64,000 bases of DNA from Halanaeroarchaeum sp. HSR-CO (GTDB lineage: Archaea; Halobacteriota; Halobacteria; Halobacteriales; Halobacteriaceae), in contig NZ_CP087724.1 of assembly GCF_024972755.1 (NCBI RefSeq), positions 496,001 to 560,000 on the forward strand, read 5' to 3'. The notes below the pieces were generated by a model. It made no database searches. It was not told the origin of the DNA and saw only the letters and a program-made list of their open reading frames with translations. Each line of letters starts with the position of its first letter. The first letter of the stretch is position 1. Positions 1 to 24,281 of this stretch are shown piece by piece. Both the position numbers and the translations under genes were made by a program.

Positions 1-449
1 GTGAGGTTGTCGTAGACGCTGACGAGGAACCCGACGTCCATCCCGGGGGCGAAGACGCTGGCCTGTTCGCACTCCGTCGTCGTCGCCCCGTCACCGCCGT
101 CGCCCCCGTCACCGTCTTCGGTCGGGGTGTCGCCTTCGGTGGTCGTCGTCTGACTGGTCACAGTGACGTTCGCTCCACCGTCACCGTCGCCGCCATCACC
201 GTCTCCGTCGTCACCGTCTCCGCCGTCGGAATCCGATCCGTCGTTCGAACCGGCTCCGTCGCCGTCGTTTGCTGCATCGCAGTCGGGGCTGACCGACGCA
301 CACCCCGCGAGGCCGACGGTCGCCCAGCCGGCGGCACCTGCGGCCATCATTCGACGACGGGACATCCCGGCCCCTTCGTCCCTGGCACCCCGATCCGCCG
401 ATTCGGTCGAAGGTCGATCTGCCGCCGTCTGCTCGTGTTCGTTACTCAT
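1..449 (-). CDS. Tat-exported lipoprotein, N-terminal part only
   Basis: The gene runs off the left edge; 149 codons are visible. The N-terminus is a 28-residue hydrophilic lead, then a twin-arginine stretch (SRRRMM), a hydrophobic segment and the lipobox LAGC, so the protein is probably exported folded and lipid-anchored outside the cell. After the cysteine comes a long low-complexity linker of Gly, Asp, Asn and Ser followed by a Thr run, the usual spacer of haloarchaeal surface lipoproteins. The functional domain (beginning FAPGMDVGFLVSVYDN) is cut, so its role cannot be named. A TATA-like element at 505-514 would give a leader of about 30 bases. Confidence 0.8.
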   Translation of the reverse strand, partial: MSNEHEQTAADRPSTESADRGARDEGAGMSRRRMMAAGAAGWATVGLAGCASVSPDCDAANDGDGAGSNDGSDSDGGDGDDGDGDGGDGDGGANVTVTSQTTTTEGDTPTEDGDGGDGGDGATTTECEQASVFAPGMDVGFLVSVYDNL

Positions 450-20442: not shown

Positions 20443-21582
20443 TCACAGCGAGACGCTGGCTGCGAGGTCGTCTTCGGTCCCGGCAGGGCCGCTCGCCGCG
20501 TGGATCAGGCTGGCGGTCAAGAGGATGACGCTCGCGGTGAGGAACGCGGAACTCAGTGGCGAGGCGGTGTCCATGAACGCCCAGTACACTGGCGTCGCCG
20601 CCGTACCGAAGACGGCGCTGACGACGCCGTACATCGCCGGGGCACAGCAACAACAGGCGGTCGCGCCGGTCGTCGTGAGCGAGCCGACGAGCGACCCCCG
20701 TAGAGAGAGGTCGCGGCCCGCCTGCCACTGGTCGGTGATGACGGCGGCGTTCAGGCCGACGAGCCCGCCGAGCACCCCGAAGAGGATGACCGTCCCGACC
20801 GAGACCATCCCCGCCAGGGGAATCGCCGGGACGAAGAACTCGATTGCCGGCCAGGTTACCAGCGGGTCGGCGACGGGGAACGCTTTGACGAATCCCTCAG
20901 TCGGGGTGTTGACGCCCGGGTCGGGGTTCACGGTCACCGTGCCGGCGGAGAACGCGACGACGACGGTCGTGAAGATGGCGGTACCCACGCCAACGCGGCG
21001 CGAGAACGAACTGTCGAAGGCCGACCGGAGGACCGGCTTGGCGTCTCGCCAGACGACGTAGCCGACGAGCAGCGGGAGGCTCACCACGATGACGTAGCCC
21101 AGTGGATTCGTGATGCCGTCGTTCGCGAAGGTGACTGGATAGACGATCCAGGCGCCGAGGAGTGTCCCCAGCGCGGCATATCGGGGGCGGTCCGGCCAGT
21201 AGCGTCGGGTGACGAGGAGACTGGCGATCATGACGGTGGTGCCGACGAGGAGACTCGCGAGCGGATAGAGGTGGTTCAACGACGGGCCGACGGTCGCCAC
21301 GACCTGGATCTCGACCAGGCCGATGGCACCGAGGCCGGCCACGACGAAGCCCACCAGCATCGCTGGGGCACCCCACCGTGTTGAAAGCATCCCGCGTGCG
21401 ATAGCGAGCGGAGAACCGGCGAGCAGGAGAAGCCCCAGGGCGAAGAGCCCGAGGAGCAGCCAGTGCGGCGTCCCCGCGTGGGTCGTCCCCGTGTGTGCCG
21501 ACGCGGCGGGGACGAGTGCGAGGCTTACCACACTCACGGCGCCGGTGAGTGCGATCACGGAATGGCTCGATTCGCTGTGCAT
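20443..21582 (-). CDS. Polytopic membrane protein with CCCC motif, possible metal-handling component
   Basis: A 379-residue protein with an N-terminal export signal ending near residue 30, a short His-containing external stretch (HTGTTHAGTPH), and about eight membrane helices. Helix 7 begins with four consecutive cysteines (C310-C313, TACCCCAPAMYG). No family is recognised. The frame is open for 102 codons upstream, but the ATG at 21582 starts the signal peptide. It is divergent, over 256 bp, from two Tat-exported proteins of DyP-like and P19-like type, which suggests a role in metal or redox transfer across the membrane. Confidence 0.65.
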   Translation of the reverse strand: MHSESSHSVIALTGAVSVVSLALVPAASAHTGTTHAGTPHWLLLGLFALGLLLLAGSPLAIARGMLSTRWGAPAMLVGFVVAGLGAIGLVEIQVVATVGPSLNHLYPLASLLVGTTVMIASLLVTRRYWPDRPRYAALGTLLGAWIVYPVTFANDGITNPLGYVIVVSLPLLVGYVVWRDAKPVLRSAFDSSFSRRVGVGTAIFTTVVVAFSAGTVTVNPDPGVNTPTEGFVKAFPVADPLVTWPAIEFFVPAIPLAGMVSVGTVILFGVLGGLVGLNAAVITDQWQAGRDLSLRGSLVGSLTTTGATACCCCAPAMYGVVSAVFGTAATPVYWAFMDTASPLSSAFLTASVILLTASLIHAASGPAGTEDDLAASVSL

Positions 21583-21838
21583 GGGGTCGGCTCGGCCGTC
21601 ACTTCGACCGGTCACGGTAACGGCGTTCTGGTGTGCGGTTCGAAGTGCCGAACGCGCTCCAGGACCGCCACGACCAGTTCTCGGCAATCGTCGCTGCTTC
21701 TCGCGCGCTTTCGCTCTGGTCGGGTGTCGGTAAAGGGCCCGTGCGCCGGATCGGACGACGCTCGGCGACGGGACCGCGAAGCCAGTATCGAGACTCGCAC
21801 CAGAACCCCCTTTTCTCGTCCGCTCCCAGTACGTGTAG

Positions 21839-23131
21839 ATGACGACCGGCGACAGCGTCGATGGGGTCTCCCGCCGCTCGTTCCTCAAGCGTGCCGTCGC
21901 GGTGGGCGGTGCCGTGGGGCTCTCGGCGTGCGTCGAACAGGAGGGGACGGTCGACGTCCCTCGTGGTCCCGAGGACCGCTCGTCGCTGCCGGCGCGTCAG
22001 CACGCCTGGAACGACGTGCTGGCGACCGACGACGCGGGGAACGTCCTGAACGCGCGCCACCACGTCCTCGTCCTGCTCTCCCTTCCCGAGCCCGGGCCAC
22101 CGACCGAGGAGATGCGGTCCACCGTCGCGTCGGCGTTTGGGAGTCTGGAACGTGCGTACGCCAGGAGCAACCGGGGACTCCTCTTCACGGTCGGGTACTC
22201 CCGTTCGTATTTCGACCGGTTCGACGATCCCCTCCCCGAAAGCGTCGACCTGCCCCACCCCGAACCCCTCGCGCCGTTCGAGAACCCGGAGATGGACGAC
22301 GCGGACGTTCTCGTGCACCTCGCGAGCGACCTGCCAGAGGTCGTGTTGCGGGCCGAGCAGGCGCTCCGCGGGAACAGTCGACGGATCAACGGCGTCGAGG
22401 TGACTGCGGGCGTGACAGACGTTCTCCAGTCCGTCGACCGGCGAACCGGTTTCGTGGGGGCTGGATTGCCCGCAGAACACACGGACGTCGCCGACGTCTC
22501 CGAGGGAGCCATTCCCGAGGAGGCGCCGTTCTTCATGGGATTCAAGTCCGGGTTCGAGAAGAACCAGGCCAGCGAGGACCGGGTGACCATCGAGTCCGGA
22601 CCGTTCGCCGGCGGGGCGACCGAACACCTCTCGACCATGTCCATCGACCTCGAACAGTGGTACGAACAGGACGACCGATACCAGCGGGTGGCCAAGATGT
22701 TCTGCCCGGGGCACGCCGAAGCAGGGACGGTCGAGGGCGTCGGCGAGAACCTCGGCACGTCGAGTAAGATGGACGACTGCGCCGATCCGAAAGCGGCCGC
22801 CCGGGAGTACGGAATCGCCGGCCACTCCCAGAAGATGCTCTCGGTTCGCGAGGACGATTCGCCCATCATCCTCCGGCGCGACTTCGACTCGACGGACGGC
22901 GACCGCCCCGGCCTGCACTTTCTCGCCCTCCAGGAGACCATCGACGACTTCGTCAGGACCCGGGCGGCGATGAACGGGACCGACGTCGCCGCCGAGACGG
23001 CGGTCGGGACGCGCACGAACAACGGCCTCCTCCAGTACATCGCGGTCCACCACCGAGGGAACTACCTCGTCCCACCGCGCTCCTTGCGCGCGCTCCCACC
23101 GGCGAACCCGGGGACGGAAGTGAGCCAGTGA
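21839..23131 (+). CDS. Tat-exported DyP-type-peroxidase-like protein
   Basis: A 430-residue protein with a Tat signal (SRRSFLKRAVAVGG) and lipobox-like LSAC (C31). The C-terminal half follows the DyP/EfeB peroxidase order: a GFKSG block at 234-238, AGHSQKM with a candidate proximal heme histidine H329, the ILRR pair (R346, R347) and PGLHFLALQETIDDF. In active DyP enzymes the GxxDG aspartate is catalytic; here it is serine (S237), so peroxidase activity may be lost. Haloarchaeal members may be annotated DUF7405 (from memory). It precedes a P19-like lipoprotein by 52 bases, likely one operon. Confidence 0.7.
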   Translation: MTTGDSVDGVSRRSFLKRAVAVGGAVGLSACVEQEGTVDVPRGPEDRSSLPARQHAWNDVLATDDAGNVLNARHHVLVLLSLPEPGPPTEEMRSTVASAFGSLERAYARSNRGLLFTVGYSRSYFDRFDDPLPESVDLPHPEPLAPFENPEMDDADVLVHLASDLPEVVLRAEQALRGNSRRINGVEVTAGVTDVLQSVDRRTGFVGAGLPAEHTDVADVSEGAIPEEAPFFMGFKSGFEKNQASEDRVTIESGPFAGGATEHLSTMSIDLEQWYEQDDRYQRVAKMFCPGHAEAGTVEGVGENLGTSSKMDDCADPKAAAREYGIAGHSQKMLSVREDDSPIILRRDFDSTDGDRPGLHFLALQETIDDFVRTRAAMNGTDVAAETAVGTRTNNGLLQYIAVHHRGNYLVPPRSLRALPPANPGTEVSQ

Positions 23132-23183
23132 CGCGAGGGAGGACGAACCGAGCCATCCACGCGATGAAGCCGGATCCGAACCA

Positions 23184-24281
23184 ATGACACGAGACAGCGA
23201 CCCCAGCCGGTCCGAACCGACGACGAATAGACGAACGTTTCTCGGCACGGTCGGGGCAGTCGGGACCGCCAGCCTCGCCGGCTGTTCGGACCTCCTCCAG
23301 TGGCAGTCGCCATATGCACCGCCGGTCGTCGAGGATCGACCCGATGCCGTCTATCATCCCACGCACACCGAGGAGATGGTGATGGCGGGGATGAAGAAGG
23401 CGGGACCGTACGGCTGTGCGCTCTCGTACGGGTATCCACACCGGTTCTGGCTGGTGACCGGGACGCGCACGGAACGCGTCTCGATCCGGGAGGACGATTC
23501 GGTCCACCTGATGGCCACGATCTGGGACCGGGCGTCCGGGATCGTCCTGCCCGACGCGAGTCCCGACGTGGAGATATCCGTCGGCGAAGAGACGGTCACA
23601 TCCCTCAACCCCTGGTCCATGCTCTCCCAGCAGATGGGCTTTCACTTCGGTGACAACGTCACTCTCCCAGGCGATGGGTCCTACGACGTCGAAATCGGGA
23701 TCGCACCGCCCTCGCTCCCCCGATCCGAGTCCATGCCCGACGCTCCCGACGAGCGGACGACCTGCTCGGTCGACTTCGAGTTCTCCCGGGCCGAACGCGA
23801 CGAACTATCGGTCACGGAGTTCCCGGACAGACAGGGCGACCCAGGTGCGGTGCCCGCGATGGACATGTCGATGACGCCGACGTCGACGGTGCCAACCATG
23901 GGAGACCTCCCCGGGCGGACGCTCGGGTCGGCCACGAGCGGGGACGCCGCCTTCACCGTAACGATCGTCGACGACGCCGCCCGATTCGGTGCGTCGGCGG
24001 ACCAGTCCTATCTGTCGGTGTCGCCGCGGACGCCACACAATCGGTTCGGACTCCCGTTCATGTCGCTCTCGGCGTCTCTGGACCGCGACGGCTCCGCCAC
24101 AGACGTCTCCCTCGACGCGGCCCTCGACCCGGCGCTCTCCCTCCATTACGGTGCGGTCGTCGCCGAACCGGTGACTGGCACCGACCTGACGGTCACCGTG
24201 GAGACGCCACCACAGGTATCCCGCCACGAGGGATACGAGACGGCATTCCTGGAGATGCCGCCGGTGGAGTTCACGCTGTAG
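23184..24281 (+). CDS. Tat lipoprotein with tandem P19-like iron-transport domains
   Basis: A 365-residue lipoprotein with Tat signal (TNRRTFLGTVG) and lipobox LAGC (C34). Residues 50-180 resemble the P19/Tp34 iron-transport fold: YPHRFWL, SVHLMATIWD, then MGFHFGDNVTLPGDGSYDVEI and IAPP. A methionine-rich linker (AMDMSM...TM, about 225-239) leads to a second, shorter repeat (TPHNRFGLPFM, LHYGAVVAEPV, TVETPPQ). H108, M110, H154, H285, M293 and H321 are candidate metal ligands. P19 proteins bind copper and assist periplasmic iron uptake. The metal here is unproven. Confidence 0.7.
   Translation: MTRDSDPSRSEPTTNRRTFLGTVGAVGTASLAGCSDLLQWQSPYAPPVVEDRPDAVYHPTHTEEMVMAGMKKAGPYGCALSYGYPHRFWLVTGTRTERVSIREDDSVHLMATIWDRASGIVLPDASPDVEISVGEETVTSLNPWSMLSQQMGFHFGDNVTLPGDGSYDVEIGIAPPSLPRSESMPDAPDERTTCSVDFEFSRAERDELSVTEFPDRQGDPGAVPAMDMSMTPTSTVPTMGDLPGRTLGSATSGDAAFTVTIVDDAARFGASADQSYLSVSPRTPHNRFGLPFMSLSASLDRDGSATDVSLDAALDPALSLHYGAVVAEPVTGTDLTVTVETPPQVSRHEGYETAFLEMPPVEFTL

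Follow-up and report, generated by a model that had tools for sequence, protein, structure and literature searches.

Which metal is served by a haloarchaeal surface cassette whose proteins resemble parts of bacterial iron-uptake systems, and which membrane protein serves as its partner? The question is raised by three genes of Halanaeroarchaeum sp. HSR-CO, located in a window of 64,000 nucleotides (nt) (contig NZ_CP087724.1, positions 496,001 to 560,000), and all three are present between window positions 20443 and 24281, as an earlier note on this DNA had reported (Table 1). P0001 codes for a membrane protein with four consecutive cysteines (CCCC), P0002 for a DUF7405 protein, and P0003, which follows P0002 after 52 nt, for a tandem P19-like protein. 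With a probability of roughly 0.5, the cassette is an extracytoplasmic module for the capture and handling of a soft metal, copper being the likeliest, and probably supplies or protects the heme-copper respiratory chain. Such a module would help to answer how copper for haloarchaeal cupredoxins and oxidases enters the cell; in a genome survey of Haloferax mediterranei the only import candidates are a CopD-domain protein and non-specific routes (PMC9240420), and a profile search of the Halanaeroarchaeum sp. HSR-CO genome gives no match to CopD. Folds, homology, residue conservation, co-occurrence, and the sharing of a promoter element were computed for the three families.

P0003 is, by sequence comparison, a tandem P19 protein, and the two P19-like domains claimed for it earlier are borne out in several ways. 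It matches PF10634 (P19) above the Pfam cut-off and also contains DUF7350, and its family profile matches FtrA (E, 4e-6). Real P19 proteins align with its first half (hhalign 96%; E, 4e-9) and more weakly with its second (hhalign 52.6%; E, 1e-4), and the two halves are homologous to each other in a profile alignment (96.5%; E, 9e-10). Bacterial P19 forms a two-domain unit as a homodimer. P0003 shares with P19, FetP, and FtrA of the FetMP and FtrABCD systems (PF10634) the homologous domain and the equivalents of the copper ligands, H108, M146, and H154, which are invariant in domain 1 (46/46 haloarchaeal sequences). It differs in that two domains are fused in one twin-arginine translocation (Tat) lipoprotein, in the absence of an FTR1 partner, in the replacement of the acidic iron patch by Met/Thr, and in the loss from domain 1 of the last, C-terminal copper His, whose equivalent is found in domain 2, where it aligns weakly (hhalign 52.6%) with the invariant H348.

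In Campylobacter jejuni P19 the copper site adjoins an acidic patch of Glu3, Glu44, Asp46, and Asp92 that is regarded as the iron site (PMC9174327). Three of these positions (Glu44, Asp46, and Asp92) were checked in the 46 haloarchaeal sequences, and the patch is gone from every one: all 46 have Met both in place of Glu44 (M110) and in the Asp92 region (M151), and the Asp46 position (T112 in P0003) is Thr, Ser, Val, Ala, or Ile, with no Asp among the residues listed. The P0003 family contains 3.5% Met, versus 1.5% in neighboring genes (p, 3e-22); MxM motifs are conserved at 65/67 and 226/228, and some members have long Met repeats. This residue pattern is what would be expected of a copper protein and not of an iron protein. 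It is thus rather doubtful that the cassette is an archaeal EfeUOB/P19-type iron-uptake system, one whose tandem P19 and peroxidase-like protein would make Fe(II) or heme iron ready for a permease that differs from FTR1. P0002 and P0003 are both homologous to components of iron systems, and Pfam labels the P19 half of P0003 'Fe2+ transport', but the loss of the acidic patch and its substitution by Met in 46/46 sequences weaken that explanation.

P0002 belongs to DUF7405 (PF24152; E, 2e-153 in Pfam), and the resemblance to dye-decolorizing peroxidases (DyPs) such as EfeB that had been noticed in it is upheld by structure prediction. An AlphaFold model built from a 46-sequence alignment (predicted local distance difference test [pLDDT] score, 89) has only DyP-type peroxidases, EfeB included, among its 50 best PDB matches (50/50; best E, 8e-17), with a TM (target) value of ~0.7 against DyP structures; the protein is therefore modeled to carry the DyP (dimeric ferredoxin-like) fold. 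Residues were mapped by hhalign alignment to Escherichia coli EfeB and their conservation was counted in 46 sequences. The proximal heme His (H329 in both EfeB and P0002) and the distal Arg (EfeB R347, P0002 R346) are kept in 46/46, and a supposed loss of the distal Arg was rejected on EfeB numbering. The catalytic Asp of the GXXDG motif (EfeB D235) is replaced in P0002 by Ser237 (GFKSG) and occurs at this position in 0/46 DUF7405 proteins (Ser in 30, Ala in 14, and Asn and Gly in one each), which also argues against iron uptake. Some DyPs depend critically on the Asp and others on the Arg (PMC8197335), and because the essential residue varies in this way the peroxidase activity of P0002 is not predictable.

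P0002 is like EfeB and the other class I Tat-exported DyPs in its fold, proximal His, distal Arg, and Tat export, and like EfeB of EfeUOB in having an adjoining gene for a metal-binding surface protein. It differs in the Ser, Ala, Asn, or Gly found for the GXXDG Asp in every family member, in its lipobox, in an identity of only ~13 to 16% in structural alignments, in having a P19-like partner instead of EfeO, and in lacking EfeU. The precedent for copper is DtpA of Streptomyces lividans, a Tat-exported DyP in copper handling that oxidizes Cu+ (PMC8197335); the likeness is functional only and comes from the literature, and DtpA, unlike P0002, has no known P19 partner. The N termini of both P0002 and P0003 contain a twin-arginine motif and then a Cys in a lipobox-like context, and the two are therefore probably membrane-anchored Tat lipoproteins.

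The DUF7405-DUF7350 pair is near-universal, and the trio with P0001 is a variant of it found in particular lineages. DUF7350 is present in 124/145 and DUF7405 in 124/141 genomes of class Halobacteria; over the 141 shared genomes, 120 have both, 17 have neither, and 4 have DUF7405 alone (Fisher p, ~2e-18), so that the pair is found in ~85% of haloarchaea. Among 50 DUF7405 loci, DUF7350 lies within the fetched neighborhood in 40 and immediately adjacent in 33, and within the phylum DUF7350 is present in 28 of 37 members of class Halobacteria versus 0 of 180 others. Relatives of P0001 are present in 20/141 genomes, ~12 of which have them beside the pair; co-occurrence, proposed as a check on the three genes, is thus strong for the two Tat proteins, but the full trio is confined to a minority of genomes. 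A same-genus genome lacks all three genes, and the cassette has therefore been gained or lost within the genus. Neither DUF7405 nor DUF7350 is named in the literature searched, and hence no metal can be assigned to them from it.

The absence of an FTR1-type permease, which had been remarked on for this cassette, extends to all haloarchaea searched: FTR1-family proteins (PF03239, REXXE) are found in 0/141 genomes, Halanaeroarchaeum sp. HSR-CO included, in a search that matched both the E. coli and B. subtilis controls, and the idea of an FTR1-type permease hidden in haloarchaea was rejected. A replacement permease for iron is therefore conceivable, but the Halanaeroarchaeum sp. HSR-CO genome already has FeoB, and an iron-starvation proteome of Haloferax volcanii lists siderophore transporters and does not name DUF7405 or DUF7350 in its main text, to which the search was confined (PMC11349517). 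No universal permease partner of the DUF7405-DUF7350 pair was found, the recurrent neighbors (the ten-transmembrane-helix protein C2, MFS, and ABC proteins) being varied.

P0001 is predicted to have a signal peptide ending in AxA, followed by an invariant His30, about nine transmembrane helices, and one extracytoplasmic-looking beta segment (residues 231 to 261). The invariant columns among 54 family sequences include H30, C310, C312, C313, and P315 (CxCC-x-P). An AlphaFold2 model (pLDDT 84, falling to 58 to 75 around residues 291 to 330) has no fold match in the PDB at E<=0.001, the best hits being G-protein-coupled receptor noise, and there is no family match in Pfam above the cut-off or in NCBIfam. 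All 67 relatives from the genome_contigs collection (85,000 species) belong to haloarchaea, and relatives occur in three contexts. Those with TACCCCAP lie beside DUF7405/DUF7350, in Halanaeroarchaeum sp. HSR-CO and in Halobacterium-like genomes. Those with TACCCCGP (L171, L174, and L182) are neighbors of MerA-like reductases, of a small CC membrane protein (78 to 79 amino acids), and of a regulator resembling ArsR (the MerA cut-off, TIGR02053, is passed at L171, for which alone this is shown), and are a candidate haloarchaeal mercury transporter. Those with CTCGCCGP belong to islands that also hold genes for P1B ATPases, CDF proteins, multicopper oxidase, and cupredoxin-like and cytochrome-bd-like proteins.

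The simplest common reading of the CCCC family is a thiophilic-metal transporter, and the location of its members in mer and heavy-metal islands counts against iron. P0001 resembles MerT and MerC in having a membrane helix with adjacent cysteines and then a Pro, and its relatives adjoin MerA-like proteins in three genomes; it differs in having ~9 transmembrane helices rather than 3 to 4, in lacking any sequence-family or fold match to them, and in belonging to a family confined to Halobacteria, and its own locus in the window is without mer gene context. To the copper importers CcoA, CopD, and YcnJ it is alike only in a proposed role, copper entry for oxidases, with no fold match to known transporters, no CopD domain, and a different motif (CxCC-P). 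The same islands suggest another role, in which the cassette is a surface sensor or trap for excess soft metals (Cu, Hg, and Zn/Cd) and the CCCC protein is an exporter or detoxification transporter. Such a defense function, favored by the adjoining MerA, P1B ATPase, CDF, and multicopper oxidase genes and by a neighboring helix-turn-helix protein that resembles ArsR/SmtB metalloregulators below the cut-off, is unlikely; DUF7405 and DUF7350 are near-universal in haloarchaea, unlike typical resistance genes, and the promoter element described next is tied in Halanaeroarchaeum sp. HSR-CO to a respiratory oxidase and not to resistance genes.

The DUF7405, DUF7350, and CCCC families have in common a new, conserved predicted promoter element, TTCGA-N7-ACCAGAAY followed by a TATA-like T run, which was found by comparing divergent intergenic regions. 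Enrichment was scored with only the ACCAGAAY part, at distances of up to 150 nt from leading genes: it is upstream of 23/55 DUF7405, 14/35 DUF7350, and 12/50 CCCC genes, or 49/140 leading module genes, versus 5/923 other genes of the same loci (Fisher, 3e-41), and in 39 cases its first A lies 38 to 40 nt before the start codon. Exact matches of the shorter element inside coding sequence are many and were discarded. A scan of 49 haloarchaeal genomes with the strict pattern gives 20 distinct sites, of which ~15 precede module genes; the two in Halanaeroarchaeum sp. HSR-CO precede the CCCC gene and COX I (at 1,889.7 kb). That HTH_HVO_0163 regulates the element is only a guess, and this family is present in 49/49 genomes tested, with or without the module. 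In Halobacterium-like genomes (L108, L109, L172, L248, L250, and L251) the two divergent elements merge into a long palindrome centered on TCGAATTCGA.

The site at COX I provides the link to respiration, as it is the only other correctly spaced intergenic copy of the element in Halanaeroarchaeum sp. HSR-CO and precedes the cytochrome c oxidase operon (locus L362). This locus codes for COX I to III, a Rieske protein, a cytochrome-b-like protein, and heme O synthase, and around them for C2, DUF7471, and an HTH_HVO_0163 regulator; the latter three gene types also flank CCCC-DUF7405-DUF7350 in Halobacterium-like genomes (L108 and L109), and C2 adjoins COX I in six genomes. C2 is a Pfam-less family with ten transmembrane helices and a conserved His that occurs beside both DUF7405/DUF7350 and cytochrome oxidase. 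These shared elements and gene types, the C2-permease beside cox, and the apparent surface anchoring of P0002 and P0003 would also suit a role in oxidase maturation or heme handling, with the DyP-fold protein carrying heme and the P19 tandem giving copper, without importing it, straight to heme-copper oxidases on the cell exterior. This is very unlikely, however, given that the link is strong only in Halanaeroarchaeum sp. HSR-CO and that SCO proteins already fill this role in haloarchaea (PMC9240420).

Several observations weigh against a copper module that serves the oxidases. According to titles in the reference list of PMC10783030, the characterized P19 systems all transport iron and require the copper site for it, so the kept copper site of P0003 is compatible with iron as well. 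Some contexts of CCCC relatives contain Zn/Cd-type ATPases rather than copper ATPases, and the CCCC protein, adjoining the pair in so few genomes, was rejected as its general permease. Genes for cox are in only 4/60 module neighborhoods, and the element was found before COX I in none of 29 other genomes (0 at 29 other COX I loci), so that its conservation there was rejected and the oxidase link rests mainly on gene neighborhoods and one genome. Nonetheless, copper or another soft metal appears more likely than iron. The earlier note's view of an archaeal metal-uptake counterpart with a different permease stands insofar as there is an archaeal DyP/P19 counterpart with another membrane partner; its analogy with iron uptake is weakened by the Met-replaced acidic patch, the lost DyP Asp, the mercury, copper, and zinc islands of CCCC relatives, and the element before the oxidase operon. 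A haloarchaeal set built from parts of bacterial iron-uptake systems, with metal sites re-made and an undescribed cysteine-rich membrane protein in place of the iron permease, points to copper.

For the copper module we infer the identity of the metal, a composite site, heme binding, transport and its direction, and the oxidase link. Lipid-anchored P0003 would bind copper through His108, Met110, Met146, Met151, and His154 of domain 1, possibly completed by His348 of domain 2, a single chain forming the unit that bacterial P19 makes from two. Lipid-anchored P0002 would bind heme through His329 and, without the peroxidase Asp, may work as a redox partner or heme-handling protein and not as a classical peroxidase. 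Where present, the CCCC protein would use thiolates of its CxCC-P helix as the site through which the metal passes, and the shared element would switch on all module genes together. A fuller version is tentative: the CCCC proteins may be a new, haloarchaea-only class of thiolate soft-metal (copper) transporter with an undescribed fold, acting together with a DyP without its peroxidase acid and a tandem P19 whose metal has been switched from iron to copper, in a copper-supply regulon of the heme-copper chain under the new element. If the copper module is correct, a near-universal haloarchaeal copper system is named, a few substitutions and a fusion have turned an iron-binding P19 to a different metal, DUF7405, DUF7350, and the CCCC family each gain a suggested function, and a cis-element is available for finding the regulon.

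Table 1. Coordinates of the cassette, its predicted elements, and associated features (window positions unless a locus is named)
Feature	Position	Strand	Details
P0001, CCCC membrane protein gene	21582-20443	-	379 amino acids (aa); ATG start; read leftwards
CCCC codons, residues 310-313 of P0001	20644-20655	-	Seen in the sequence; 3/4 Cys invariant among relatives
P0002, DUF7405 gene	21839-23131	+	430 aa; divergent from P0001; Tat motif and lipobox SRRSFLK...LSAC
P0003, tandem P19-like gene	23184-24281	+	365 aa; Tat motif and lipobox NRRTFLG...LAGC
P0003 domain 1	residues ~55-205		H108, M110, M146, M151, H154; Pfam, profile, alignment
P0003 domain 2 (DUF7350)	residues 241-364		H321, H348; Pfam, alignment
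Predicted promoter element, CCCC gene	21618-21644	-	TTCGAACCGCACACCAGAACGCCGTTA; first A of ACCAGAAC 50 nt before ATG
Predicted promoter element, DUF7405 gene	21788-21806	+	TCGAGACTCGCACCAGAAC, then TATA-like CCCCCTTTTC; first A of ACCAGAAC 40 nt before ATG
Predicted promoter element, cytochrome c oxidase operon	L362:9692-9718		Outside the window; strict pattern
C2 family member	L362:7675-8940	-	
C2 family member	L091:7883-9265	-	
C2 family member	L108:4190-5509	+	
DUF7410-like protein	L121:4579-4842	+	
DUF7410-like protein	L292:4168-4431	-	
DUF7410-like protein	L362:7421-7678	-	
Weakly cohesin-like protein	L102:4609-5355	-	Nine other loci
Flanking gene, MBL-fold protein	20382-19729	-	Appears unrelated to the cassette
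Flanking gene, Orc1/Cdc6 protein	25346-24303	-	Appears unrelated to the cassette

A TTG at 21888, taken from the open reading frame list, was rejected as the start of P0001 in favor of the ATG given in Table 1. Small zinc-finger membrane proteins (DUF7410-like) are found at three loci, two of them carrying the TTCGA-N7-ACCAGAAY element and the third adjoining the oxidase locus. In one group of genomes (10 loci), DUF7350 is followed by a weakly cohesin-like surface protein of ~220 to 290 aa.

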